64,000 nt of DNA from Taiwanofungus camphoratus. Taxonomy: Eukaryota > Basidiomycota > Agaricomycetes > Polyporales > Taiwanofungaceae. The stretch is taken from assembly GCA_003999685.1 (NCBI GenBank), contig CP021224.1, forward strand, positions 1 through 64,000. Reading direction: 5' to 3'. Shown in pieces: positions 2,080-57,093 of the stretch. The position numbers and the translations under genes were made by a program. Within the stretch, counting starts at the first letter, position 1. Every line of letters begins with the position of its first letter. Under the pieces are notes generated by a model, which saw only the letters and a program-made list of their open reading frames with translations, made no database searches and was not told the DNA's origin.

Positions 2080-5000
2080 ATGGCCAATCGCCTTCCTCGT
2101 TCTGGACCCACCCGTTCGACTTCCGCCGGACCAGGTGGAGCATCACTTCGCGCCGCTATTGCGAGGAACCTTGCTCCCCCCTCGTTGGCTTATGCCATGG
2201 GAGCGACGACACTTGAGACTATTGCCGATGAGTTCCGCGCCGTCCTTTCAGCTGAGACATTTGACACCGTCCTTTCAGTTGTGCCTCTCGTATATCGGGA
2301 GGTACTCCGCCCGGTTTTGGCTAGCATTGCGGAAGCGAAGGAACGCTGCGTTTCTTTGTCGAAGCAAGTGGGTGAGCTCGAGGCTCATCTTGCCAACGGT
2401 TCCCTTCCGCCCCAGTTACAAGGCATGGGGGAACCCGTTTTCCAGTCAGCGAAAGTTTGGCTGGAAACACACCCGGCGGAACCAGGGGCTCTTGCGACGA
2501 AATTTCAAACGTTTCGTCGCGAAGCACTTGCTCTAGCGATTTCGCAAAAGCGTGCTGAGCTCACGTTCTTCGAAGGCGCGCTGGACCCTACTACTATGTT
2601 GGGGAAGGCGCGCGACGTGGTCGATTCACAATGGGCCGCAATCTCTCAGAGTTCGCGAGTTCCTAAGTGGAAAACCTCTCTTGATGGGAACGTCGAGATT
2701 GAGGGATGGCAGAACGACCCCGTCCTCGAGTCGGAACATAAGCGATTCGTCGCTGTGCTCCCGCGGTTTTGCTTCCGTGTCGTGAACATTCGCGAATCAC
2801 AGTTAGCACATGCCGCGACTCGAGCTAATGCGAAGAGTGCCCTCAAGGCGGTTGCGGAGGTGGAAATGAGTGACACCGCCGAGAATCCCGCCGCCTTGAA
2901 GAAACTGATTGACGATGCTGTTGATCGTCGGTTGAAAGGTGAGGGCACCTCGAAGAACGTTAAACAACAGGTCAGTTTTGTACACGGTTCAGTACCCAAA
3001 AACTTACCTGGCGCCGCTCTCTCTCGTATTCTAGAAGGGCAAAGGCAAGGCGCCGAATCGTTCAGCGCGCATGAGCACAGGAGGACGCCCTCCCAAAGCT
3101 CCGCAGCGCGCGGCAAAGCAGAAGCAAGCCGCTTCGTCGAAAAAGGCTTCGACGAAGAAGAACAAAGGGAAAGGGAAAGGGAGACCGAATTAATACGGTA
3201 TGTCCTTCGGTCGCGACTCAGATTTTCGCAACCCTCTACTTACCCTGACGCAATACTTGATCTACCTACACCAGTCGGGGCACGCACCCTCCTTTACTTT
3301 GCACCGGCAGCTTTAGTCGAGGCACAGAGGTTCCGGACATGGGTTCATGTTGGCGACGATGTTAGATTACCGGCGGAGATCAGTATTCACATTTCTTGCG
3401 GACTTAAGTACATGCTGTACGCTCCCCCTTCCGGGGAGTTAGTTCAAAACGCTTATGATGACTTTTGTGAAAGAATTCGGTGGAGAGTTCATTTCGCCTG
3501 CAAACAAAAAATTCTTGAGCGGCAAGGAATAAGTCAACCACCTTATGATCCTGACTACGACTTGAGGTTGAAACGCGATAGCAACGCACCTCAAGCCAGC
3601 CAATATATCGAACTTGGTCTTAAACGCGGGCAAACATACGTCACTGATTTCATACGCACTGTCGTACCCGGTTTGAAAGCTAGAAGTCGCCCTAATCGAC
3701 TTGTAGACCTGGACAAAGTTCGCCTCTGGTTAGACGAGCATAACTACCTCGTCCTCCAAACGGACAAGAACCTCGGCGCTGCTGTAGTCACAAGGGAATG
3801 GTTCATTAATGGTTGCAATTTACTTCTGTCGAATACGGCTGACTATCAGGAAATTAATCCCGGTCAACGACAGATGTACTTAGAAAAGGTTACTAAGCGG
3901 GTCAAGGAGTTAAGCGATTGGGTCGAAGGGGCTTTGCCTCATGATCAGACACTCCAATTAGCCAAATACCTTCGGTCTAAATGTCCCGAGAGCGAGTTGG
4001 AAGAGCCTAAGGTTCCCATCTTCTATGGTATCCCAAAAATCCATAAGACACCTGTGAAGATGCGGCCTATTGTGCCCTGTCATTCATGCGCTCAAGGCCC
4101 CGCGGCTAAAGTAGTATCCAAGTTGTTGAAACCCATCATAGAGGCTGAACCCTTTATTATACATGGTAGTAAAGATCTTGCTGCCAAGTTAGCAACGGTT
4201 AAAACACTAAAATATAAAAAGTATTGGCTTGTGGCCGGCGACGTAGTCGCTTTCTACCCAAATGTACCTCTCAGAGAATGCGTCGGCATTGTATCTAAAT
4301 TGTACATCAGTCATCCACTAGGTAGTCAATTAACGGACCACCCCGAATTTTACAACGCCTTGTTTATTCGGTGTATGCAATCGGCCAATTACGATCTAAT
4401 AGTTGACTTCAACGGTCACACATTTCTTCAAAAGCGAGGATTAGCGATGGGAGTGGCATGCTCGCCCGACCTAGCTAATCTATATGGATGCCATTTTGAA
4501 AATAAAGTCTGGCCTTCTGGGCAGGTTAGCCCACCCTTTCTTTATTATGGGCGGTACATCGATGATGTATTCGCTATCGTTGAAGCAGGTAGTGCAGCAG
4601 AAGCTTTAGAACTCTGCACCAGTCGTATTTCATACACTGGCTGCACTATAACATGGGAAGTGTCGGAATGGGCAACGCCATTCCTTGACATGCTTATTTA
4701 TATTGACCCCGTTACCAACCGGGTGGAACATAAGCCGTATCGGAAAGCACTTAACCATCATGAAAGAATACCATGGATATCTCACCATCCAAAGGACGTT
4801 AAAAAAGGCACGTTTATTGGAGAGATGAGCCGTTTAGCCACGCTAAGTTCTAAGTTGGAACACTACTTAGATGCCCTTAAAGGGCTTGTCGATTTGTACG
4901 TCGGCCGTGGCTATCCCCCTGCTCTGGTTGTCTCTTGGCTTGATGCGCATAAAGCAGTACGCTGGGCGAAACGTTTGGACATAAAACAAACTTCGACCGA

Positions 5001-5604
5001 AAAAGCGGACGCGAATGATGGCGTACTTGTGCTTAAATCACAATTCAACCCTTCATGGGATTCTTTCGATGTTCATGAATTAATGACACGAGTCACTGGA
5101 TCGTGGGTGGAGTCTTTGAGTTTCTTCAAAAACTTCTTTTCGGCGAGTTGGGAAAACTCGGCCGCTCCGATTTTCGATTATTCGGCTGGGGGTTCGCGGG
5201 ATGCGACCCTTTCCGGCACAGTTCAGACCACGCTTGAGGAGTGGTGGGATCCGGCCCGAGTAGCGCAGCGGAAACGTTCGCGCGAAACGGCGGCTGCTAA
5301 CGCGGCAGCGGATCGTGCCGCCGCTGAAGCCCGGCGGTCTGATCAAATCTCGACACTGGCGGCGGTTGTCCATGATAACCGCGCAGACGAGGGCTGGGTA
5401 TGGACTGGGCGGTACCTAAGGAAACCCACCGGATTTATTGAGGCGGAGAAGGTCCCTGACCTTTCCCAACTCGGATTCTTAGACAAGCGCTGGCTTGTGT
5501 CACGGAAGCGGGAAACCAACTTCGCTGACTTAGCAAACAAATGGCGCAGAAGTGTTATTAATGCCCAAAGTGCGGATGACGTACTTTTGGAAATGAATAT
5601 TTAA
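2080..5604 (+). CDS. Penelope-like reverse transcriptase, endonuclease-lacking
   Basis: The single open frame of 1174 residues starts at ATG 2080. It copies the element RNA into DNA, probably at chromosome ends in the nucleus. Visible RT motifs in order are FYGIPKIHK (about residue 648), RPIV, the motif A aspartate in GDVVAFYPNVPL (D721), GLAMGVACSPDLAN (from 787), and the catalytic YIDD (D828, D829). These are Penelope/TERT-type motifs. The ~170-residue C-terminal tail is Ala/Arg-rich and shows no GIY-YIG endonuclease signature, matching the telomere-associated EN-minus PLE group. Residues about 325-370 are highly charged. The N-terminal ~300 residues resemble nothing I recognise. No frame interruption is seen, so it may be active. 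Confidence 0.93.
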   Translation: MANRLPRSGPTRSTSAGPGGASLRAAIARNLAPPSLAYAMGATTLETIADEFRAVLSAETFDTVLSVVPLVYREVLRPVLASIAEAKERCVSLSKQVGELEAHLANGSLPPQLQGMGEPVFQSAKVWLETHPAEPGALATKFQTFRREALALAISQKRAELTFFEGALDPTTMLGKARDVVDSQWAAISQSSRVPKWKTSLDGNVEIEGWQNDPVLESEHKRFVAVLPRFCFRVVNIRESQLAHAATRANAKSALKAVAEVEMSDTAENPAALKKLIDDAVDRRLKGEGTSKNVKQQVSFVHGSVPKNLPGAALSRILEGQRQGAESFSAHEHRRTPSQSSAARGKAEASRFVEKGFDEEEQRERERETELIRYVLRSRLRFSQPSTYPDAILDLPTPVGARTLLYFAPAALVEAQRFRTWVHVGDDVRLPAEISIHISCGLKYMLYAPPSGELVQNAYDDFCERIRWRVHFACKQKILERQGISQPPYDPDYDLRLKRDSNAPQASQYIELGLKRGQTYVTDFIRTVVPGLKARSRPNRLVDLDKVRLWLDEHNYLVLQTDKNLGAAVVTREWFINGCNLLLSNTADYQEINPGQRQMYLEKVTKRVKELSDWVEGALPHDQTLQLAKYLRSKCPESELEEPKVPIFYGIPKIHKTPVKMRPIVPCHSCAQGPAAKVVSKLLKPIIEAEPFIIHGSKDLAAKLATVKTLKYKKYWLVAGDVVAFYPNVPLRECVGIVSKLYISHPLGSQLTDHPEFYNALFIRCMQSANYDLIVDFNGHTFLQKRGLAMGVACSPDLANLYGCHFENKVWPSGQVSPPFLYYGRYIDDVFAIVEAGSAAEALELCTSRISYTGCTITWEVSEWATPFLDMLIYIDPVTNRVEHKPYRKALNHHERIPWISHHPKDVKKGTFIGEMSRLATLSSKLEHYLDALKGLVDLYVGRGYPPALVVSWLDAHKAVRWAKRLDIKQTSTEKADANDGVLVLKSQFNPSWDSFDVHELMTRVTGSWVESLSFFKNFFSASWENSAAPIFDYSAGGSRDATLSGTVQTTLEEWWDPARVAQRKRSRETAAANAAADRAAAEARRSDQISTLAAVVHDNRADEGWVWTGRYLRKPTGFIEAEKVPDLSQLGFLDKRWLVSRKRETNFADLANKWRRSVINAQSADDVLLEMNI

Positions 5605-5691
5605 ACTGTTAAGTCAGTTTGATTAGCATCGGTTACATCAGGTGTAACGTTATCTTAGTGTGTTGGTGTATTAGGGTTGTCTGTTCAAACC

Positions 5692-5775
5692 AGACCTAAC
5701 CTAACCCTAACCTAACCTAACCTAACCTAACCTAACCTAACCTAACGCTAATCCTAAACCTAACCTAACCTAACC
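5692..5775. repeat. Interstitial telomere-like block before right pseudo-LTR
   Basis: CCTAA units include one CCCTAA hexamer near 5703 and are followed by the same CTAACGCTAATCCTAAACC variant as at 974-1033. It sits between the RT ORF and the second pseudo-LTR, so it belongs to the element layout and is not an independent telomere relic. Confidence 0.82.
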
Positions 5776-6637
5776 GCCGGACTTTCCCAGTCCTGCGCTT
5801 AGGGTTGCCTTAAAATAGATAGGCGCCTTACGTGTCACGTGATATGTTCGGCACTTAGTACGGACCGGCCCTTCACTGCGGCCCGGTGCGCGCCGTTCCC
5901 GCATGCTAGCGGAGCGCGCGTTAACTACTATGGTCCCTAGCGCCCCTCTGCTGTGTTAGTCCATGATCTGGTGATCTGTGGGTTGTAACATGCTAGAGCA
6001 CGGTGCGGCAACTTGCTGGACGCGGTCCTATTGAGTATCCTTCCCCCGCCCCGCATGGCTCGGATAGGGTGCTCACGGGGATTCCCAGGTTTGTGCCATG
6101 ACATGATGCTTCCTCAGTGGTCCACGCTACCCTTAGTAGACGCCCGGAAAGCGGCCCGGTCACATGATCGGTGCGGCACCGGCTATGTTGTTCCTATCTA
6201 TGTCCGGCCCGGACTAACCTCCGGCCCGGACTTCCTATCTCTTATCTCGGATCTTGAGCCTAGGCTTAAGGTCTGGATTCTAATCTTAATCAGATGACTC
6301 TGACATCTGATCAGTAATGGTGTCTAGGCGAATCTAGACAATGATGATTGCTCATCGCTGATTGATCAGGATAGGAGGGAGAGACGTGATTCGCTCCCAT
6401 CTGCAACCCTTTGCCCTGGAAAGGTCAAACTGACTTAGTCACCGGCCCCCGGGCCATGACTCAACCATAAGCGTGACTTTGGTTGAACTTGGTTATAAGC
6501 GACGCTAGTGCTCTGATGAGACTTAGTCGAAATTAGCCGTCCGATAGCGATATCGGGCTAATTAGTACTAGCTTCCATTAAGTCTTCTCAACGCTCGCAA
6601 CTCCTTCGTCGTTGCTCGCTCCACCTCCTAACCTAAG
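5776..6637 (+). repeat. PLE pseudo-LTR, right copy
   Basis: It is identical to 1034-1896 wherever I compared them. It ends CTCCACCTCCTAACCTAA and then joins the unrelated R1 repeat, so the telomere-like tail is the last part of the element. Confidence 0.85.
6504..6572 (+). ncRNA. Hammerhead ribozyme 3 (identical to ribozyme 2)
   Basis: This is the copy of ribozyme 2 in the right pseudo-LTR. The core CTGATGA is at 6513-6519 and the predicted cleavage is after 6563. Confidence 0.88.
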
Positions 6638-7050: not shown

Positions 7051-7818
7051 CACGGACCGGTCGGGCCGCAAGGCTGGACTGGCCTGGGCATCACCTAGTT
7101 ATGGTCACCAGCGCCCCTCTGCTGAGTTAGTCCATGAACTGGTGATCTGTGAGGTGTAACATGCTATGGCACACTGCGGCAACTTGCCGGACGCGGTCCA
7201 CATGATATGTCTTTCTGATCAGTAGCCGCAGCTACATCAGGGATGTGCCTATTGGGATCCTCAGGTTTGTGCCAGACATGATGCTTCCACAGTGGTCCAC
7301 GCTGCCCTTATCTAGGCGCCCGGGAACCGGACTGGTCACGTGACTCGGTCGGCACCGGCCCGGATTGTTCTATTCCCACCCTGTCATCCTAACCGATGAT
7401 AAGGGATCTCTTATCTCTGAGTCATCTTAAATGACTCCTTATCTTCACATCTGATTGTTATCTCTGATCAGTTGGCGGTATTGGTAAGGCTAGGGCGTTC
7501 TAGCCTGGCCCTTTGTCAGCTCCGCGTGATAAGAGATAAGAAAAATGACACCATGTGATTGGTGTCCGTCCTACCTCATGACCTGGTTGGTCAAATTGAA
7601 TCAGTCATCGGCCGGAGGCCGATGACTCAGGGTCAGTCATCTGACAGCCCTGAACCTCGGTTATAAGTACGATGAGAGTACTGATGAGCTCTTTAGCGAA
7701 ACAAGTGGGTATCTAGCGATAGATACCATTGTTTACTCTTGTCTTTCCCTATTTTTCTCATCTCTTCCTACGCTCGTCTGTCTATCGGCGGTCTCGCTCC
7801 ACCTCCTAACCTAACCTC
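7051..7818 (+). mobile_element. Penelope-like element tail, subfamily B, 5' truncated
   Basis: It is closely similar to 217-973 of the telomeric copy, from GCACGGACCGG onwards, and begins abruptly at the R1 TATA box. It contains the conserved hairpin (AGTCATCGGCC / GGCCGATGACT near 7602-7627) and hammerhead ribozyme 4. It ends CTCCACCTCCTAACCTAACC. Confidence 0.75.
7671..7743 (+). ncRNA. Hammerhead ribozyme 4
   Basis: Stem I pairs 7671-7680 with 7734-7743. The core CTGATGA is at 7681-7687, stem II is GCT/AGC with a CTTT loop, and GAAA is at 7698-7701. Stem III is ACAA/TTGT with an 8 bp GGTATCTA/TAGATACC hairpin and a GCGA loop. Cleavage is expected after GTT at 7733. Confidence 0.87.
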
Positions 7819-7976
7819 GGTTATAAAGTACGATGAGAGTACTGATGAGCTCTTCAGCGAAATAAGATCAGTAGCTAGTGATAGTTACCCTTATTTACTC
7901 TTGTCTTCTCTGTTATTCTCATTACTTACTACGCTCGTCCGCCTATCGGCGGTCTCGCTCCACCTCCTAACCTAAC
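7819..7976 (+). mobile_element. Penelope-like element 3' tail, subfamily B, short fragment
   Basis: This second 3' fragment lies directly behind the first. It starts a few bases upstream of its ribozyme and ends CTCCACCTCCTAACCTAACC. Two tails in tandem, each closed by telomere-like bases, look like successive truncated additions to a former chromosome end. Confidence 0.75.
7832..7905 (+). ncRNA. Hammerhead ribozyme 5
   Basis: Stem I pairs 7832-7841 with 7896-7905. The core CTGATGA is at 7842-7848, stem II is GCT/AGC with a CTTC loop, and GAAA is at 7859-7862. Stem III is ATAAG/CTTAT with a 7 bp hairpin and a GTGA tetraloop. Cleavage is expected after ATT at 7895. Confidence 0.87.
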
Positions 7977-8399
7977 CCAATTTCAGATGGTCTCTACCAC
8001 AGTATATATTCATTAAACTTTATCAATGTTGAGTGGTTTGAGGCTTTACAAGTATGGAGATTACCCTCAGCTATTTAGTCTAGCTCTCAGCTCACTGCAA
8101 ATATTCTTTTTGCACTCACTGTTAAAAAACAGATAATCACAGTGTCAAGAGCTGAATATTTCACTGTTCATCACCAGCTTGTATACAGACCTGCTTTAAG
8201 ACCTTTAGAAGGTCTGTGCCTTTGTTCCCGGGCAAATATCTCATTTTAAAGCTTGTTTCCGGACACCACAAGATTTCTCATAGTCCAATAATGTTGAGGT
8301 CCGGGAACAAGCAAAGGAGTGAGATAATGCCACATCTGTTGACCTCCCCATGGTCTATTGATCATGGTCTTTCCATCTGTGCTCTCAGAATTATCAATT
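7977..8399. repeat. Subtelomeric repeat R2 with unique leader
   Basis: 7977-8102 is AT-rich unique sequence. From about 8103 the R-family blocks begin. The inverted repeat is GCTTGTTTCCGGAC (8251-8264) against GTCCGGGAACAAGC (8299-8312), one mismatch. The unit lacks the terminal palindrome and TATA box and runs into R3 at about 8400. Confidence 0.65.
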
Positions 8400-39479: not shown

Positions 39480-41614
39480 GTCACCAGTCAGCAGTCGATG
39501 CAATATTTGTTCAGGTTATGGCTAAGTTGCGATACTCTGTCGAGGGGGCTTACACTGAACATGGCAATATATATTGATGTGCACCTGAGCAATCCAGGGT
39601 CATTCTAACCTTGGCTGGAGTCAAAGCGTTGCAACCCTGAACTTTGTTACATAAGTGCATGCCAATGGAATTCAACATCACGTCAGTGCGGTGTAACAGG
39701 CACTCGTCTGATATTTTCGGATGCAGTAGGATTGATTCGTCTTGCCCTTGCGTCTTTCGATATGAAATTGTTACATCTTCGGTTCGAAGAGAGTCAGCAA
39801 GCTGGGTCAGACGACCCACACAACGAAGGCCACCTCAAGAGGATGCAATAGTACGAAAGACTGCTGATGAGCTCAATATACCTGTGTGGACAATATCAGT
39901 AACCTGAGGCGCAATGGGAGCCGTTGATAAGATAGAAGCTAAAGGGAGCGACGCACATGTTTAACAATGATTCCTCCCGGCATGGCATTGCTGTATGGGA
40001 AGACCAAGGTTTTCACATCCACGATGTCCATAAGAATGAACGGCTAGAGTCACGGAGTCCATGTTGATGTAGATAGTAAGTATATGACTTTTTGAAGGCG
40101 ACAAGAATACTGCATGATCTGGCACGGAGTATCAATAAAAGACCAATGTACTGCTACATGCATGATCACTGGAAGCATCGGTGGTTAAACGATAGCCAAC
40201 AAAGGCAGTCTACCGTCGAAAACGCCGCGGAGCCAAAAGGTAGGAATTCGTTGACAAATGTGATTACAAGGGCCGACTGTAAGGGCCATCTGAGGGAATT
40301 GTGACGTCGAGATAGACCGAGGAAAACGTAGTCACGAAAGTATACAGTTCTCAAAGTCATGTCCGCCTCAACTTCGAATTGGCAAATTTTAATTAGCAAG
40401 CCTTATCCAGTTTCATGGATATAGTATTTGATTGTGAGTAACTTTGTTGAGGCAGGCTCCTACTGCTCTCAAGTCATTGGAGGTCCCGATAGAAGAAGAT
40501 ACGGGAAACGGGTCGGAATATCAAGGGAAACAATTCGCAGACAGCGTGGCATAATGATTGAAAAATGGACTTGGACATTGGATCAGAAGAAAATGAGTCC
40601 TTTCTGGACGACTGAGCGCTGAGCGCTGAGCATTCGTTGCGTACACACCCGTTGCGTACACGCCCGTTACGTACATAGTCTCCATTGCTTGACCATAGAC
40701 GGATAGTATGGACGAACAATCCGGACACTCGAATTGAATTCCTAAACAGGAAAGTAAGCCACTGCCTTCAGCGAGCCTCAGCCACACAATCGAATCCAAA
40801 CCATCGACCGTCTCCTCACTGCCTGGGGTACCCCCCTACTCTTGACGGGCATCATATGAGCAGTTCAGCATTGTCGGAACGTTGTATCGAGAGCACCTCT
40901 GTTATGGGGAAAGAGTCGGCTCAGCACTAGTCATACAAAATATCATTGAGTTGCTGACATTGCGGATCCGAATACTAGCAACATTCCAAGGGCGCGAGGC
41001 AACTTTTTTCGTCGATTTGTAAAGTAAAGTGCACTTATTCAGACTCCAGCGACTGATCAGGCTTCTCTTTTATTCGGTCCAGTCTTACAGCCGCTCCATC
41101 CAACGGAGAATTTCTACCCGTTCAAAGTTGCACGAAGCCTCGTGGTTAGTACCCGGGTCCACTCAGGAATCTTAACATAGGATTCTTCTTGTCACAACCG
41201 CAGCTGTCAATGCTCGCAAGATGGGGGAGCTGACCTGTTATTCGGACCACAGTGATCAAATTCCTCAAAAATAGTATCAATGTCCTGACTTTGACACAAG
41301 CTTTCAGTAGGGCACGTGACGATGAACAAGAGCCTTCCACCAAGGCACCTGTAAGATGCTTTTCGACATCCCTTTTCGATTTTGATTACAATATGCATTC
41401 TCGAAGACTATATCCAGTATTGGCAAGTCTGTTCACAGACAAGCCGACCAAGCCGTTGGAAGTTCTAGGGTGATCGCCGAGATTTGACGTTGTACTTGCC
41501 GTATTACACGAGCTCAAAAGGCCGCAACGAACATCTTTACCTCGTAGAATATATAAACAAGATAGGACCTGGAACCGTACGCCTACCTAATCTGCAATCC
41601 GACTGTCCTCGCCT
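39480..41614. other. P450-to-O-methyltransferase spacer
   Basis: Divergent promoter region of 2.1 kb. It holds a short tandem GAGCGCT motif and three CCGTTGCGTACAC-like units near 40620-40680. From about 41060 it is duplicated at 51490-52245 (upstream region of the O-methyltransferase). No gene could be supported. Confidence 0.45.
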
Positions 41615-43277
41615 ATGACAACATCCACTCGTGCCGAAAAGCTCCTTGCCCTCGTTGATCTTGTCAGTCAGGCTGCCCAGACTGTTGTTAGAGAATGGGC
41701 ATTGCAGGATGACTGCAAGGACAACATAGCTGATCATCCGGGCAGCTCGCTTTCCTCCTTTGAGCTGTACAACGCACAGCGGATCATCATTGCTGCTTGC
41801 GGCGCATTTACCGAGCTAGTGCACACGCCGCAGACCCGTCTCATAGAAGTGGCAATGGAATTTATTGAGGCTCGTGCCTTGCATATTGCTGCAGAGCATT
41901 ATATTGCCGACCATCTGGCGAAAGTAGAGCAGACGACTGGCATGTCCCTGGATGACTTGAGCAAAGCCACTGGGATCGAGTCGCAGAAACTAGGTGAGCG
42001 CTGCAATATTCATTTCGCCAGCAAGAAATTCTGAAGATGGACTTCAAGCCCGAATCATGCGTTGTCTTACCTCAAATCATATTTTCTCCGAGGTTCGACA
42101 CGGCCGATTTGCTAACAACAGTGTTAGTACCTCCCTAGTGCAGAATGAGCCTCTCAGAGGATTTATACTTTTGACGTGAGGTTCTCTTACCACTGGAAAA
42201 TTTTGCAGCTGACAGAAATTCTTTAGAGGAAGCTCTATTTACATGGCATCCGATAAACTACCAGACGTCCTTCGTAATTCAATTGAGTGCAACTCAACTG
42301 ATGTGAGCGCTACGGCGCTTCAGGTTGCTTACGGTACGAAGCTACCTCCTTTTGAGTGGCTCGAAGAGCAAATTGAGCAGCCTGATGGTACGATTGGACC
42401 GAGGCCGGAATTCCCCTTTTTTGTTCTGGGAATGATCGGAATAGGTCGTATACAGTGCGCTCCGCTCTATGAAGGTATGCGATTTTATTCTGGTTTCAGG
42501 GTCGTTTCCACGCTCAAACATCAAACCAGACTTCCCTTGGGAATCTCTAGGCTCTGCCACAATCGTCGACGTCGGTGGTGGTGTTGGTGAGTGTTGCTTA
42601 CAGTCAAGTAACATTGAGTCTCATTGTCTTGTGACAAGGGGGGATGAGCATTGACCTATGCAAGCGATACTCGAATCTCGCATTTGTTGTACAAGACCGT
42701 GCTCATACCATAAAGGAGGCCAAGGCAATCTGGCGGCGCGAGCAACCCGGCGCTCTTGAGACAGGACGTGTACAGTTGATGCCGCATAACTTCTTCGAGG
42801 AAAACCCTGTCAAGCACGCGGATGTCTATCTCTTACGCTATGTCCTGTATGACATCCCGTCCCTCCTAGACCCACCGTTAAGATCTCACTCCTAACTTTG
42901 TACACAACAGACATAACTGGGAGGACGATCTCTGTGTAGACATCCTGAAGGCCATCCGACCCGCTCTCGGTTCACATTCACGCATCCTCATTGCGGACGT
43001 GGTGATGAACACGACACTGGGATGCATTGGGCTCCCATCCGCCCCCTATCCACTGCCCGCTGACTATGGAATCTTTACACGCTGGGCGCATGCATTGGAC
43101 CTTACTGTGATGTCTTTATGCCGTGGTGCGGAACGTACGGTGGATCACTTTCACCTGCTAGCAAAACGCGCAGGGCTAGTCATCGAGCGGATTTGGGAAT
43201 GTCGGGGGATCATGCATGTCACTGAGATGAGGTTGCCACAAGCAGCAGAGGTAGTAAATCGGGACGATAGAGATTGA
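41615..43277 (+). CDS. O-methyltransferase, plant/fungal COMT family
   Basis: SAM-dependent O-methyltransferase (Methyltransf_2 family) of about 450 residues. Start ATG 41615 (MTTSTRAEKLLALVDLVSQA). The helical dimerisation domain includes AMEFIEARALHIAAEHYIAD and, after a GT-AG intron, CLTSNHIFSEVRHGRFANN. The SAM motif IVDVGGGVGGMS is split by an intron after VG. RYSNLAFVVQDRA and LMPHNFFEENPVKHADVYLL follow, then the catalytic His in HNWEDDLCVDIL at an exon start, and LIADVVMN. It ends ...VTEMRLPQAAEVVNRDDRD. All motifs join in frame, so the gene looks intact. The acceptor substrate is unknown; fungal relatives act on phenolic metabolites. Confidence 0.88.
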
Positions 43278-43471: not shown

Positions 43472-43479
43472 CATCTGCA
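43472..43479. repeat. Target-site duplication CATCTGCA, left
   Basis: Matches 50493-50500 exactly. Confidence 0.85.
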
Positions 43480-43600
43480 TAGTGCTACCGTGAGGTGAGG
43501 TACCTCAGACCTCAAGGTGACGTGAGGTGCACCGGCACGCATGCCGGTCACCTCGAGGTACCTCAAGGTGACCTTGAGGTAACTCAAGGTAAAACTGGCC
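43480..43600. repeat. Subterminal palindromic decamer array, left
   Basis: Clustered ACCTCAAGGT, ACCTCGAGGT, ACCTTGAGGT and half-sites surround the hairpin CACCGGCACGCATGCCGG. Comparable arrays lie at 47470-47610 and 50285-50492. Confidence 0.7.
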
Positions 43601-46600
43601 TGGCCTGTGGTTGTGAGAGGACCGGTCACGTTATGTGGACGCGTCGCAACCACTCAAGCAAAGGCCTGAGACCGATAGTAACAATGGGTCTGCTTCAAAT
43701 TCTTAAATTCAATCTGTGGTGGGATGGCCTTACACTCACTCAAGATTGGGTGCTGGGCCAGGAGAAAATGTTGCAGTGACATCAACATCATATCAGATGG
43801 TTCTTCTGGAGCATTAGAGAGTTATTCAAGTTGTGTTAAAATTCTTCTGTACTGCCTCCACTAAGTATATGCCATTGTACTGCTTTGTCAATACACTCAT
43901 TTGCAAATGAAGCAACAAGTTATTTGCTGATGAGTCCCATAGCCTCCTGGGCCCCGAATCGTGATTTTAGGAGCTTTCTAATCCCCCAACCGACCATTCT
44001 AAGACTCTTCTACAGCCTACGACAGGTGGGATAGGTTCCTATAATATTCCTAATGCCTCCTTTCCTTCCTAAACCCTTCTAACACCCTACAAAGTCTTGC
44101 AAAGTCACACGAGGTGCTACAAGGTTTTGAATGCTAGCCATGAAGTCCCTAACTCCTGCTAAGTCCACTATCGGACACTGCCGGCCCTCCCATACTGTTC
44201 TATTGGATCTAGGTCCTAGCTACTACGTCACTCATCCCGGGCTTAGCTAAGAAGTCTTAGCTAAGTCTCTCCTAGCTCTTGTAATTGCAGCTACCTCCGA
44301 TAGGCTCCGAAACGGTCCAAAGTTCCAGAAGCTGGACTTAGGAAGCCTCGTGCACCCCATGGGTCTCGATCCTATGCCATAAGGTCATCCTAGGGCGCAT
44401 CCATATGATCCTCCACCCATTTAGGACACCTCCTACCCCGATTAGGCCAAGTCCCACTGCTAAGGACTTTGTATGCTCTTAGCCCACTAAGATAGTTGAT
44501 CACAGCGCATGGCTGCTCTCGGATAGTCATCCCGCCCTCGTGAATGAACTTGGTCACCTGTCTACCGTACGTAGTTCCCCTGTTTCAGTTCCTATTTAGT
44601 TCCTATCCTCCTCATGTTCACTTTGGAGCCCATGCGCTGTAGTACACATTTCGGAAGTGCAAGGATCACTTCGCGCAAGAATAGTTCACCTCACGCTCCC
44701 CTATTTAGTCAGAGGTACTTTACTATGTACGAGAGAGACCCCTCGGTGCACGCTTCTCTCTTTGGAATACAAGTTCCCCTGTAGCTCCGATCTCAGGAAA
44801 GCGCCGTGAGTACAACCTTAGGAACGGTGATACAATCTAGGGGACCCTGGTACCTAGGGAGTGCTCCGCAACGTGGCTGGGGGTAGTGTGATAACTGTGA
44901 GGGTGTGAGGGTAGGAGCTACAACCTGTATGATACCGGGAAACCTGTATGTCTTGTTTTTGTAAGTAGGGGAGTAAGGGGTCAAGGGTCCTGCACAACAG
45001 GATCTTGTTCCTAAGTGTTATACTATCCCTAAGGCCTTGCGAGGCCCTCCGAAGTACGCGAAGTCCTTTGAGATTCTGCGAAGTCCTTCGAAGTTTTAGC
45101 TAAATTGCGCGAGCTGACTTCGTAGGCTGTATAGAGTTAGGGAGCAATAAGCCAATGGACTATAATTTCTACTAAGCGGCAGAGGGTACGAGACTGCTGC
45201 GAAGTCCTTTTAGCTAGAGTTAGCTAAAGGGTGTAAGGCTTAGAGGTTTGTTAGAGCGAGGTGGGCGAGGTTTGGCTGGCGTAGGAGACTTGTAGGAGAG
45301 GTCGGATGGTTCGGAGAGCTAATACTTGGAATAGGAATGAGGGAACGAGGTTGCTGGAAGCTCTGAAGTGTCTGATGACGTCGAGGTGTGGGTCGGAGAG
45401 TTCGAGGGCGTAGAGAGATGTACTATAGCCTGTAATGAAGGCTATGGGGGAGTCGTAGGGTTATTCGTAGGACGTAGGGATGACGCAACGTGAGCCTAAG
45501 GGTATAACTAAGGCGGAGGCCCACCGGATAGGTGCTATAAGAGGTGCTGAAGGGCACGAAGTCACGGCGACTTCGTAGATCGTAGTGCGTAGTTCGGGAA
45601 GCGTAGACGTAGTTCGTAGATATATCGTGAGCGTAGACGTAGTTCAAAGGTACTGAAACGGAGCTGGGGTGGAGACTTAGGGACCTTGGGACCGTTCCTA
45701 AGGTTGTACTCGCGGCGCTTTCCTGAGATCGGAGCTACAGGGGAACTGGTATTCCAAAGAGAGAAGCGTACACTGAGGGGTCTCTCTTGTACATAGTAAA
45801 CTACCTCTGACTAAATAGGAGAGCGTGAGGTGAACTAATCTTGCGCGAAGTGATCCTTACGAGTCCGAAATGTGTACTAAAACGCATGGACTCCGAAGTG
45901 AACACGAGGGGGATAGGAACTAATTAGGAACTGAAACAGGGGAACTACGAACGGTAGAAAGGTGACCAACTTCATTCACGAGGGCGGGATGACTATCCGA
46001 GAGCAGCCATGCGCCGTGATCACCTATCTTAGCGGGCTAAGAGTGCACGAAGTTCTTAGCAGCGGGACTTGGCCTAATCGGGGTAGGAGGTGTCCTAACT
46101 GGGTGGAGGGCCATATGGATACGCCCTAGGATGACCTTATGGCGTAGGATCGAGACCCATGGGGGTGCACAAGGCTTCCTAAGTCCAACTTCCGGAACTT
46201 CAGACCGTTTCGGAGCCTATCGGAGGTAGCTGCAATCACAAGAGCTAGGAGAGACCTAGCTAAGACTTCTTAGCTAAGCCCGGGATGAGTGACGTAGTAG
46301 ATAGGACCTAGATCCAATGGAACAGTATGGGAGGGCCGGCAGTGTCCGATAGTGGACTTAGCAGGAGTTAGGGACTTCGCGTCTAGCATTCGAAATCTCG
46401 TAGCACCTCGTGTGACTTCGCAAGACTTTGTAGGGTGTTAGGAGGGTTTAGGAAGGAGAGGGGGCGTTAGGAATATTATAGGAACCTATCCCTCCTGTCG
46501 TAGGCTGTAGGAGAGTCTTAGAGTGGTCGGTTGGGGGATTAGAAAGCTCCTAAAATCGCGATTCGGGGCCCAGGAGGCTACGGGACTCATCAACGGTCCT

Positions 46601-47460
46601 AAGGCCCCTAAGTCTCTACCCCAGCTCCATTTCAGTACCTTTGAACTACGTCTACGCTCGCGATATATCTACGAACCATGTCTACGCTTCCCGAACTATG
46701 CACTACGATCCACGAAGTCACTGTGACTTCACACCCTTCAGCACCTCATATAGCATTTATCCGGTGGGCCTCCGCCTTAGTTATACCCTTAGGCTCATGT
46801 TGCACCATCCTACATTCTACAAATAGCCCTACGACTCTCCCATAGCCTTCATTTCAGGCTATAGTATATCTCTCTACACCCTCGAACTCTCTGACCTCTC
46901 CTACAGGTCCCCTACGCTAGCCAAACCTCGCCCACCTCATTCTAACAAACCTCTAAGCCTTATGCCCTTTAGCTAACTCTAGCTAAAAGGACTTCGCAGC
47001 AGTCTCGTACCCTCTGCTGCTTAGTTGAAACTATAGTCTATTGGCTTATTGCTCCCTAACTCCATACAGCCTACGAAGTCAGCTTGTGCAATTTAGCTAA
47101 AACTTCGAAGGACTTTGCAGAACCTCAAAGGACTTCGCGTACTTTGGAGGGCCTCGCAAGGCCTTAGAGATCATATAGCACTTAGGAACAAGATCCTGTT
47201 GTGCAGGACCCTTGACCCCTTACTCCCCCACTTACAAAACCAAGACATACAGGTTTCCCGGTATCATACAGGTTGTAGCTCCTACCCTCACATCCCCACA
47301 GTTTCCACACTACCTACCAGCCACGTTGTGGAGCACTCCCTAGGTACCAGGGTCCCCTAGGTCGTATCATCGCTCCATGTGAATAATATCTTATACAGAA
47401 AAGGGCATAATGCCATTCTGGGGTTATTCACCTTCCATGTATGGTGTGTGATAGTCTGAG

Positions 47461-47610
47461 CCGTGCTCTGCCGGTTACCTCAAGGTACCTCGAGGTTAGT
47501 GCTGCCGTGAGGTGAGGTGAAGGTCACCTCGAGGTGTCGGAGTTGCTACCTTCACTTACCTCGAGGTAGTCAAGGTGCACCTCGAGGTACCTTGAGGTAA
47601 CCAGCAGAGC
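47461..47610. repeat. Decamer array at the nested junction
   Basis: It contains the inner element end (47497-47586), which is the exact reverse complement of 50403-50492. ACCTCGAGGT-type palindromes occur about every 15-20 bp. Confidence 0.7.
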
Positions 47611-50402
47611 ACGGCTCAGACTATCACACACCATACATGGAAGGTGAATAACCCCAGAATGGCATTATGCCCTTTTCTGTATAAGATATTATTCACATGG
47701 AGCGATGATACGACCTAGGGGACCCTGGTACCTAGGGAGTGCTCCACAACGTGGCTGGTAGGTAGTGTGGAAACTGTGGGGATGTGAGGGTAGGAGCTAC
47801 AACCTGTATGATACCGGGAAACCTGTATGTCTTGGTTTTGTAAGTGGGGGAGTAAGGGGTCAAGGGTCCTGCACAACAGGATCTTGTTCCTAAGTGCTAT
47901 ATGATCTCTAAGGCCTTGCGAGGCCCTCCAAAGTACGCGAAGTCCTTTGAGGTTCTGCAAAGTCCTTCGAAGTTTTAGCTAAATTGCACAAGCTGACTTC
48001 GTAGGCTGTATGGAGTTAGGGAGCAATAAGCCAATAGACTATAGTTTCAACTAAGCAGCAGAGGGTACGAGACTGCTGCGAAGTCCTTTTAGCTAGAGTT
48101 AGCTAAAGGGCATAAGGCTTAGAGGTTTGTTAGAATGAGGTGGGCGAGGTTTGGCTAGCGTAGGGGACCTGTAGGAGAGGTCAGAGAGTTCGAGGGTGTA
48201 GAGAGATATACTATAGCCTGAAATGAAGGCTATGGGAGAGTCGTAGGGCTATTTGTAGAATGTAGGATGGTGCAACATGAGCCTAAGGGTATAACTAAGG
48301 CAGAGGCCCACCGGATAGATGCTATATGAGGTGCTGAAGGGTGCGAAGTCACAGTGACTTCGTGGATCGTAGTGCATAGTTCGGGAAGCATAGACGTGGT
48401 TCGTAGATATATCGCGAGCGTAGACGTAGTTCAAAGGTACTGAAATGGAGCTGGGGTAGAGACTTAGGGGCCTTAGGACCGTTCCTAAGGTTGTACTCAC
48501 GGCGCTTTCCTGAGATCAGAGCTACAGGGGAACTTGTATTCCAAAGAGAGAAGCGTGCACCGAGGGGTCTCTCTCGTACATAGTAAAGTACCTCTGACTA
48601 AATAGGGGAGCGTGAGGTGAACTATTCTTGCGCGAAGTGATCCTTGCACTTCCGAAATGTGTACTACAGCGCATGGGCTCCAAAGTGAACATGAGGAGGA
48701 TAGGAACTAAATAGGAACTGAAACAGGGGAACTACGTACGGTAGACAGGTGACCAAGTTCATTCACGAGGGCGGGATGACTATCCGAGAGCAGCCATGCG
48801 CTGTGATCAACTATCTTAGTGGGCTAAGAGCATACAAAGTCCTTAGCAGCGGGACTTGGCCTAATCGGGGTAGGAGGTGTCCTAAATGGGTGGAGGATCA
48901 TATGGATGCGCCCTAGGATGACCTTATGGCATAGGATCGAGACCCATGGGGTGCACGAGGCTTCCTAAGTCCAGCTTCTGGAACTTTGGACCGTTTCGGA
49001 GCTGTTACAAGGCGATAATGGTGCGAACATACATTTTCATTTCTCTTCACTATACCGGACTAGCGGGTCGTGTACACTTACAATTATCACCATTATTCCT
49101 GACGGGCTGACCGTCACCCGCTTAGTTATGGACTGTTCCTCAGAAGGGACCACTTGGGCCTCTGACTTATGGACGCTTAGGTACTGGTACCCGTGGGAGT
49201 GAGGGCTGGCTTGCCCTAAACCCACCATAGTACTTAAGGGGTTGGCTCACTGTGGAGCACCCCAATCTTGTCCTCCTTAGTTACACTGTGTACTTTGGTG
49301 CCGTTGTTACCATTTGTACTTTACGACTGGGCTTAGGCCCCTATACCTTCGTCTATTCAACGGGTCGCCTTAGACCATCTATATCCCTGTGACTACACTA
49401 GGACTTAGGCTGTGACTTAGCCCGCAACTCTCTCGAGACTGTTGGGCTAGCAGTTGAAGACTTAGACGTGTACTCGTCGTCAGCCAGGCTGACTCCTCGT
49501 TTACACTTCACGCCTGACTACTCAACGACCCCCCGTCACGGTAGTCACCTACGGGCGTAGACCCCCCGCAACAGGAGCCTATCGGAGGTAGCTGCAATTA
49601 CAAGAGCTAGGAGAGACTTAGCTAAGACTTCTTAGCTAAGCCCGGGATGAGTGACGTAGTAGCTAGGACCTAGATCCAATAGAACAGTATGGGAGGGCCG
49701 GCAGTGTCCGATAGTGGACTTAGCAGGAGTTAGGGACTTCATGGCTAGCATTCAAAACCTTGTAGCACCTCGTGTGACTTTGCAAGACTTTGTAGGGTGT
49801 TAGAAGGGTTTAGGAAGGAAAGGAGGCATTAGGAATATTATAGGAACCTATCCCACCTGTCGTAGGCTGTAGAAGAGTCTTAGAATGGTCGGTTGGGGGA
49901 TTAGAAAGCTCCTAAAATCACGATTCGGGGCCCAGGAGGCTACGGGACTCATCAGCAAATAACTTGTTGCTTCATTTGCAAATGAGTGTATTGACAAAGC
50001 AGTACAATGGCATATACTTAGTGGAGGCAGTACAGAAGAATTTTAACACAACTTGAATAACTCTCTAATGCTCCAGAAGAACCATCTGATATGATGTTGA
50101 TGTCACTGCAACATTTTCTCCTGGCCCAGCACCCAATCTTGAGTGAGTGTAAGGCCATCCCACCACAGATTGAATTTAAGAATTTGAAGCAGACCCATTG
50201 TTACTATCGGTCTCAGGCCTTTGCTTGAGTGGTTGCGACGCGTCCACATAACGTGACCGGTCCTCTCACAACCACAGGCCAGGCCAGTTTTACCTTGAGT
50301 TACCTCAAGGTCACCTTGAGGTACCTCGAGGTGACCGGCATGCGTGCCGGTGCACCTCACATCACCTTGAGGTCTGAGGTACCTCACCTCACGGTAGCAC
50401 TA
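47497..50402. mobile_element. Inner hAT-like copy, inverted and internally deleted
   Basis: It starts TAGTGCTGCCGTGAGGTGAG and ends ...CACGGTAGCACTA. It is flanked by the 8-mer CTCGAGGT on both sides (47489-47496 and 50403-50410). Joining the two flanks restores a continuous outer element end, which supports a clean insertion. Relative to the outer copy it is reversed and lacks about 1.77 kb (equivalent of 44829-46597). The break lies at AACGGT, a 6-mer present at both ends of the missing segment. It carries the solo LTR at 49003-49573. Orientation against the outer copy creates the large visible palindrome centred near 47540. Confidence 0.85.
49003..49573. mobile_element. Solo LTR of an LTR retrotransposon
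   Basis: A 571 bp block begins TGTTAC, ends GCAACA (TG...CA termini) and is flanked by the 5 bp direct repeat GGAGC (48998-49002, 49574-49578). The same site is uninterrupted in the other copies of this module (for example near 46210). No internal region is left, so it is a fossil from recombination between LTRs. Family (Gypsy or Copia) cannot be told. It is younger than the inner hAT-like copy it interrupts. Confidence 0.85.
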
Positions 50403-50492
50403 CTCGAGGTGCACCTTGACTACCTCGAGGTAAGTGAAGGTAGCAACTCCGACACCTCGAGGTGACCTTCACCTCACCTCACGGCAGCACTA
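50285..50492. repeat. Subterminal palindromic decamer arrays, right (two abutting ends)
   Basis: 50285-50402 is the end of the inner copy, 50403-50410 is the duplicated target, and 50411-50492 is the true right end of the outer copy. Confidence 0.75.
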
Positions 50493-50500
50493 CATCTGCA
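50493..50500. repeat. Target-site duplication CATCTGCA, right
   Basis: Matches 43472-43479 exactly. Confidence 0.85.
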
Positions 50501-51489
50501 GCTCACGCGGCTGAAAGTCAGCTCTACTACGATCAAACGATCATGATGGTCACTATCATGTCAAGCGATGGATTACGTGCATTGATTGCGCGACATAAGC
50601 TGTTGCTTCGTCAAGGACGACGAAAGCAGAAATAGAAAGAACTTCCCTCCTTTTATCTATTTGTGGGCCAAAATTGCTTGAACGGAGGGGACTTGCTCTT
50701 GGAGGCCTTGGGATAGCTAGCGCCAACGTTGGCCTGGGTGGAAAGACGTGTGATGAGTACATGTCTTGTTACATTTTCGCGATCTGACTGGACGTGAGAA
50801 GTGCGGTTTAGTCGAGTTGGAACGATCGGCAGCATACCGTTCGAGCCCACTATTCCCTCCTCACACGTTCCAGTATGTATGAAAACAGCATTATTTTAGT
50901 GATACTTATCAATTTTTGGTAGCCCAGGTGACGACAGGCTGAGGAAGATCTCAAGCCCCTTGAGGAGCATGGGCTTCAATCACGCACTGATTTCGATGAG
51001 TTCTCTGATGAACTGATTTCCCAGCCCGAAGGCATGAGTGTCTATGACTTAAAGGCCATAACTCAAAGGCAGACTAAGGAACTCTTTCATCCCGTTGCGC
51101 AGAATCATCCAGGAGGTAGAAAAGCTCGTACTGGTCGGTGACAATGGACGCGTTGTCCCATTCCAAGCAGATTGACCTCCCGGGAGAACATTGAACCCGT
51201 AACGTATAATTGCAGTGAGTACATACGAAGCCTGCCCTTCAAGCACATGCTGATGTCCGGATGTCATGCCAATTGTAAAAAGGATTCGTACTGCGGCATC
51301 CAGGTTTCCAGCGTATATGAGGCCACCGCCAGAAGCGCCGAGCACGATGTCGTCCCTGAATCTGAACCTCGGTGGAGTCAACATGAGTCTTGGCGGCCCG
51401 GCTGGAAGAAGAGTGCACAAGACAAGTAGCAAAGGTGTAAGTCTACAAGCGGATGGGACCAAGGGTGCGATAGCATCTCCTAGTCAATA
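50501..51489. other. Unresolved accessory stretch
   Basis: A minus-strand frame at 51049-51462 contains GASGGGLIYAGNLDAAV and looks partly protein-like, but I recognise no family and found no continuing exons. It may be a remnant of another cluster gene. Confidence 0.3.
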
Positions 51490-52245
51490 GGCTTCTCTCT
51501 CGTTCGGTCCAGTCAAACAGCCGCTTCGTTCAACAGAGAATTTCTACCCATTCAGAATTGCCTCATGGTTAGTACCCGTATCCACTCAGGAATCTTAACA
51601 TAGGATTCTTCTTGTCACAACCGCAGCTGTCAATATTTCAATGCTCGCAAGGTAGGGCAGCTGGCCTGTTATTCGGACCACAATGATCAAATTCCTCAAA
51701 AATAGTATCAATGTCCTGACTTTGACACAAGCCTTCAGTAGGGCACGTGACGATGAACAAGAGCCTTCCACCAAGGCACCTGTAAGATGCTTTTCGACAT
51801 CCCTTTTCGATTTTGATTACAATATGCATTCTCGAAAACTATATCCCGTACTAGAAAGCCTCAATCGATGTGTTCGCAGAGAAGCCGGCCAAGCCGTTAG
51901 AAGTAGGGTGCTTGTCGAAAAGTTGATCTCACTGCATGTCGGATTCCTCAACGTTTCACTTAGCCGTAACAAGCCCTTCGTCTTCCCTATTTGCATGCAA
52001 AAAGGACTTAAAGTGGCAAGTTATGCACTCCTTTCGAGTAAGCCCATTACCATCATGTTTTCTCGTACGACACGAGCTCAAAATACCGCAACGATCATTC
52101 ATGCCCCATACGGCATACATACTGGATAGGGCCGCTCACCTATCTCACTGAAAACTAGGTGTCTGCTCCTTTGGCCTCGTTTGCTCGTGCCCGGCGAAAA
52201 GCTATTTGCCCTCGTTGATCTTGTCAGTTAGGCTGTCTAGTCCGG
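51490..52245 (+). pseudogene. Duplicated promoter and start of the O-methyltransferase gene (relic)
   Basis: From about 51490 the sequence follows 41065-41670 in direct orientation: the same GAATCTTAACATAGGATTCT block and the same long AATGATCAAATTCCTCAAAA block. At 52193-52245 the first coding codons (GAAAAGCT.TTTGCCCTCGTTGAT) match O-methyltransferase residues about 7-20. Stops interrupt it (for example TTAGGCTGTCTAG) and the similarity ends at about 52245. About 200 extra bases near 51860-52060 are absent from the left copy. It is a truncated second O-methyltransferase locus. Confidence 0.75.
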
Positions 52246-56779: not shown

Positions 56780-57011
56780 GGTTACAAGTCAAGGCGTCGT
56801 CTCATCCAGTCCAATTGCAAGGATTTCTACAGCTGCAACAATGACATCAGCCCACAAACTAGCATTGGAGGGCCAGTGATTATCGACAGTAAGTACTAAG
56901 AACAAAGGATTCAGTCAATTTCAGTGAGCGACAACTTGCAAAAAGGGTACGCGCGGCATTGTAGAGCCCTCGCTTATCAACATCGTAAGCGACTTTGGAG
57001 TCGGAAAAATG

Positions 57012-57093
57012 TGGCCAACGCCGGGATCGAACCGACGACCTTGGCGTAACACCGATATTAGCACCACGCTCTAACCAACTGAGCTAGCCGGCC
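57012..57093 (-). tRNA. tRNA-Ile(AAT) with short intron
   Basis: Read on the minus strand: acceptor GGCCGGC/GTTGGCC, D-arm GCTCAGTTGGTTAGAGC, anticodon stem TGGTG/CGCCA with CTAATA, anticodon AAT at 57057-57059, and an intron of about eight bases after position 37. The T-arm GTCGGTTCGATCCCGGC contains a full B-box. All stems pair. Confidence 0.9.

Follow-up and report, generated by a model that had tools for sequence, protein, structure and literature searches.

In the double Ds of maize, a non-autonomous element is inserted in inverted orientation into its own sibling. Nested Ds elements break chromosomes (PMC3260210), and linked maize elements whose 5' and 3' ends lie in direct orientation have been described as giving rise to sister chromatid transposition, bridges and breaks (PMC3744419), with breaks becoming more frequent the closer the ends lie (PMC9910405). 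The hAT superfamily, which includes Ac/Ds, is characterized by 8-bp target-site duplications, short terminal inverted repeats (TIRs) and subterminal repeats that bind the transposase (PMC10368747, PMC3260210). TIR lengths of 5 to 27 bp are reported (PMC3517528), together with target preferences for nTnnnnAn (Ac type/Hermes) or nnnTAnnn (Buster type) (PMC10368747, PMC3517528).

The window, that is, the whole stretch of 64,000 nucleotides analysed here, contains a comparable locus. We read it, with a probability of about 0.78, as a non-autonomous and most likely hAT-type pair of elements, one of which was cut and pasted in inverted orientation into the other, a structurally double-Ds-like arrangement whose ends could pair wrongly if a transposase were active. 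The outer element, including the nested copy, spans 43480-50492 (+) between exact 8-bp duplications, CATCTGCA, at 43472-43479 and 50493-50500 (both +). Its inverted sibling, the inner copy, spans 47497-50402 (-, 2906 bp) between exact 8-bp duplications of its own, CTCGAGGT, at 47489-47496 and 50403-50410 (both +); the chance of such an exact duplication is 1.5e-5 per junction. The TIR is 22 bp long with one mismatch, position 8 distinguishing the L type (A) from the R type (G). L-type TIRs lie at 43480-43501 (+, outer) and 50381-50402 (-, inner), and R-type TIRs at 50471-50492 (-, outer) and 47497-47518 (+, inner). With up to 3 mismatches allowed, the TIR pattern has four matches in the window, which are exactly these four ends (100 shuffles gave a mean of 0.01 and a largest value of 1). 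When the inner copy and one 8-mer are left out, the outer copy measures 4099 bp and regains a complete right end, which matches the inner copy's own left end; the nesting site is 82 bp from the outer right end. The locus thus displays the double-Ds-type hallmark, an inverted insertion into a sibling with its own duplication, and both the nested insertion and the rebuilt right end put forward in a preliminary description of this DNA are confirmed. Neither self-comparison nor the TIR pattern search revealed a further copy of the element within the window.

Without a 571-bp insert and a segment termed X2, both copies are exactly 2330 bp long and differ by 10 transitions, with no transversions and no gaps. 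Both evidently descend from one 2330-bp unit, and X2 and a solo-LTR-like sequence were, to judge from the alignment, each added to one copy only. The unit consists of a 659-bp shell (TIRs and subterminal repeats) carrying a 1671-bp segment, X1, at unit positions 450-2120 in both copies. In the outer copy, X1 occupies 43929-44828 and resumes past X2 at 46598-47368 (both +); in the inner copy it extends over 47707-49953 (-), split by the solo-LTR-like insert into 47707-49002 and 49579-49953. This insert (49003-49573, +, 571 bp, TGTTAC...GCAACA) is flanked by the 5-bp duplication GGAGC at 48998-49002 and 49574-49578. It combines the two features of a solo LTR, TG...CA ends and a duplication of 4 to 6 bp, and has no second copy within the window. 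X2 (44829-46591, -, 1763 bp), carried by the outer copy, is inverted relative to X1 and flanked by the 6-bp duplication AACGGT at 44823-44828 and 46592-46597; its insertion site is itself almost a palindrome, with 18 of 20 positions self-complementary. It is an approximately 93% identical copy of X1, with matches at 1551 of 1670 aligned positions and differences amounting to 97 transitions, 22 transversions and one 91-bp gap.

Because the termini of X1 and X2 fall on the same bases on both sides, we consider X an element of its own, non-coding, 1.67-1.76 kb long, with the ends GATGAG...GTATC and no clear TIR. These ends rule out IS3EU (TAYGG..CCRTA), and X is unclassified. The flanks of X1 (TTTGCT/ATCGCT) agree at 4 of 6 bases, too weak for a duplication call. 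As the comparison of the copies indicates, inverted self-nesting is present at two levels, the unit within the unit and X within X; the nesting may have come before or after X2, the LTR-like insert and the 10 substitutions. The preliminary description had divided the interior into modules (L, Y, inverted L, inverted Y), which is right as a description but left unexplained that two modules are separate insertions with target duplications of their own. Its view that such shuffling is unusual for a hAT derivative is not supported. A special architecture is ruled out by the target duplications, of 5 and 6 bp, that mark both odd segments as insertions, and the module order arises because X2 and the solo-LTR-like sequence were inserted separately.

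Clusters of the motif ACCTYRAGGT accompany the ends. All 16 exact occurrences in the window lie within the element, against 0.23 expected, and with up to one mismatch 21 of 23 are inside it and two outside (17510, 30748). Four exact motifs are found within 102 bp of either unit end. The outer L-end array (43509-43580, +) has its four at 43509, 43550, 43560 and 43571. Six more lie in 47477-47598 (+), on the outer R side (47477, 47487) and at the inner R end (47526, 47558, 47579, 47589), and another six in 50302-50463 (+), at the inner L end (50302, 50313, 50323, 50364) and the outer R end (50422, 50454). The inner copy was inserted inside one of the outer copy's ACCTCGAGGT subterminal motifs (47487-47496), so that the left CTCGAGGT duplication falls within this motif. 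In the outer copy, 24 of 4099 8-mer positions lie inside such motifs, a figure obtained post hoc. Insertion within the ACCTCGAGGT motif points to possible self-targeting.

The TIRs of hAT elements have a conserved A2 and G5, and the ends of the present element, which read TAGTG, agree with this rule. Moreover, the 8-bp duplication is exact at both of the two insertions, the TIR is short (22 bp with one mismatch), and the subterminal repeats represent, by their sequence, candidate binding repeats at both ends. The TIR, the length of the duplications and the subterminal repeats all favour the hAT-like label given earlier. It is not supported by target preference, CATCTGCA and CTCGAGGT matching neither nTnnnnAn nor nnnTAnnn (a preference only, with n = 2), and it is not provable without a transposase. 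The earlier statement that neither copy codes for one agrees with the ORFs scanned. Among the 48 stop-to-stop ORFs of at least 50 aa that overlap 43480-50492, the longest has 103 aa, and no transposase was found in the 15 of 48 scanned against Pfam, many of the other 33 being second-copy repeats of scanned ones; the weak matches of these 15, PolyA_pol_arg_C (E 0.2) and DUF7273 (E 0.017), are below cut-off. We conclude that the element is likely to be a non-autonomous hAT; this is not proven, because no transposase was found in the scanned ORFs, the window holds no other copy, and Zisupton also yields 8-bp duplications. The TIR 20-mer, like a looser form of it, has no match in viral contigs. 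A TIR-derived 16-mer has one match in each of the 40 bacterial and archaeal loci listed, none of which (0/40) extends to the 20-mer, and these matches are taken as chance.

The alternative that survives best keeps the same nested structure and assigns the mobile unit to a different superfamily that makes 8-bp duplications, the most plausible being Zisupton/Dileera (KDZ), a group known from basidiomycetes. Zisupton is described as having 8-bp duplications and TIRs, and KDZ elements as being present in Agaricomycetes (PMC12730594). The element does combine 8-bp duplications with TIRs, a combination that is common to hAT and hence non-discriminating, and its duplications fit neither the Ac nor the Buster preference. 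However, the 22-bp TIR and the clustered subterminal repeats agree well with hAT, and two other families characterized in the same source do not fit, Kyakuja having a 7-bp duplication, CA..TG ends and no TIRs, and IS3EU a 6-bp duplication with TAYGG..CCRTA ends (PMC12730594). We therefore regard this assignment as unlikely and retain the hAT-type pair.

The substitutions between the copies show a strong bias, 9 of the 10 touching CpG (background for random transitions 0.192, P about 3e-6). Between X1 and X2, 41 of 97 transitions do so (background 0.195, P about 3e-7). If CpG is taken as ancestral, the outer copy has, in our reading, 4 of the changes and the inner copy 5. The observed/expected CpG ratio is 0.48 in the 659-bp shell and 0.63 in X1, compared with a median of 0.94 in like-sized slices of the window; the shell lies below the 5th percentile of its slices (0.64) and above their minimum (0.21), as does X1 (0.67 and 0.55, respectively). 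Since 9 of the 10 transitions touch CpG, these data suggest that CpG methylation has acted on both copies.

Such methylation, together with the shape of the locus, brings up a second alternative, in which the palindrome is a silencing source comparable to Mu killer: transcription across it would yield a long hairpin RNA, and from this would come small RNAs directed at the transposon family. The inverted arms, which had been put at more than 2 kb, indeed match at 2238 of 2248 positions with the two unshared inserts set aside. A search for inverted repeats gives them as stretches of 905 nt (99% complementarity), 829 nt (100%) and 525 nt (100%). The central 302 nt have a folding energy of -256.8 kcal/mol, whereas 100 shuffles average -92.3 (z-score -27.7). 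An O-methyltransferase-like gene (PF00891 above cut-off on 42882-43274) lies on the same strand and ends about 200 bp upstream, making read-through conceivable. A role for double-stranded RNA is thus possible in principle. However, the fold follows from the repeat itself and is no evidence of function, and transposons are often methylated where no hairpin exists. In the account of Mu killer, moreover, silencing plants made short antisense RNAs, and read-through sense transcripts accompanied failure of silencing (PMC3440606). Taken together, these points make a silencing source rather improbable.

An assembly artefact, either a fold-back chimaera or mis-joined copies, deserves mention in view of the known hazard that palindromes pose to assembly. 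Yet one half is set apart from the other by 10 substitutions and two precise insertions flanked by duplications of 5 and 6 bp, and the 8-bp duplications are exact at both levels, in flanking sequence; because a fold-back chimaera would produce neither, we consider this highly improbable. Equally remote is a single foldback-type transposon whose arms form one inverted repeat, as the overall shape, an extensive inverted repeat around a centre of 82 bp, might suggest: it is disfavoured by the inner copy, which has two TIRs and an 8-bp duplication of its own and whose omission restores a complete outer right end.

The surroundings of the element offer several further observations. Arrays of the pentamer CCTAA lie at 1-118, 969-1033 and 5687-5775 (20, 10 and 14 CCTAA counted, respectively); their C-rich strand runs inward, the orientation expected of a left chromosome end. 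The element may accordingly lie about 43 kb from a chromosome end, if the telomere-like array at the window start marks one. Between the arrays, a 1174-aa ORF (2080-5604, +) has a weak reverse transcriptase match below the Pfam cut-off (PF00078, E 3.5e-5), and this region resembles a telomere-associated Penelope-like element. The pentamer would be unusual if the host is a basidiomycete, since TTAGGG is reported for most of 21 Basidiomycota (PMC10100673). The segment 969-1894 is repeated at 5711-6636 (99.9%), and a 161-bp tandem repeat (2.0 copies, 7653-7977) is related to sequence near the telomere-like arrays. A direct repeat (41059-41463 and 51489-51904, 87% identical) flanks the element on both sides; its left copy leads into the O-methyltransferase-like gene, and its right copy seems to be the remnant of a paralogue. 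The window also contains a tRNA-Ile (AAT; 57011-57093, -) and VPS10, Atg22-like, serine carboxypeptidase and F-box genes. Its host is probably a fungus, perhaps a basidiomycete.

For the hAT-type pair, two cut-and-paste insertions of one family would account for the nested structure, a transposase made elsewhere in the genome presumably having moved both copies. Were such a transposase active, L and R ends that are complementary and directly oriented could pair wrongly, and this would, by analogy with maize, lead to sister-chromatid transposition and breaks. Two pairs of ends share a direction in this manner: L at 43480 with R at 47497, at a distance of 4.0 kb, and L at 50402 with R at 50492, at a distance of 90 bp. 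The apparent persistence of the structure argues against strong current breakage. A bolder proposal would make the locus a fungal counterpart of McClintock's double Ds, a transposase-dependent breakage site with ends 90 bp apart, born of a transposase inserting into its own bound subterminal motif; we hold this to be a long shot. A literature search on nested, inverted self-insertion of hAT elements in fungal genomes yielded a single paper, on Helitrons, which is not to say that a fungal double Ds has never been published. Should the family be active, the locus would be a sequence-resolved natural test case for double-Ds-type breakage outside plants and for a transposase targeting its own subterminal repeats; should it be inactive, the locus offers a clear illustration of how a palindrome that looks designed can come from four ordinary insertions.

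Comparison with known systems places the locus as follows. Fungal Zisupton/Dileera (KDZ) elements are alike in their 8-bp duplications and, for Zisupton, in their TIRs (PMC12730594). Mu killer, a maize MuDR derivative, resembles the locus as an inverted duplication of a DNA transposon with a potential long hairpin and an adjoining flanking gene (PMC3440606), but it duplicates part of the transposase gene, whereas no coding sequence was found in the element here. hAT MITEs such as Mar of Drosophila are likewise non-coding, with short TIRs and 8-bp duplications (PMC3517528); by contrast, the unit here has 2330 bp with a foreign 1671-bp X1, and its duplications depart from the Buster nnnTAnnn. 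Relative to the maize double Ds, the locus has unrelated end sequences, a fungal-looking host, an insertion 82 bp from an end and two copies with different extra insertions. It shares with the maize double Ds a non-autonomous element lying within its sibling, directly oriented complementary ends, 8-bp duplications, short TIRs and subterminal repeats.
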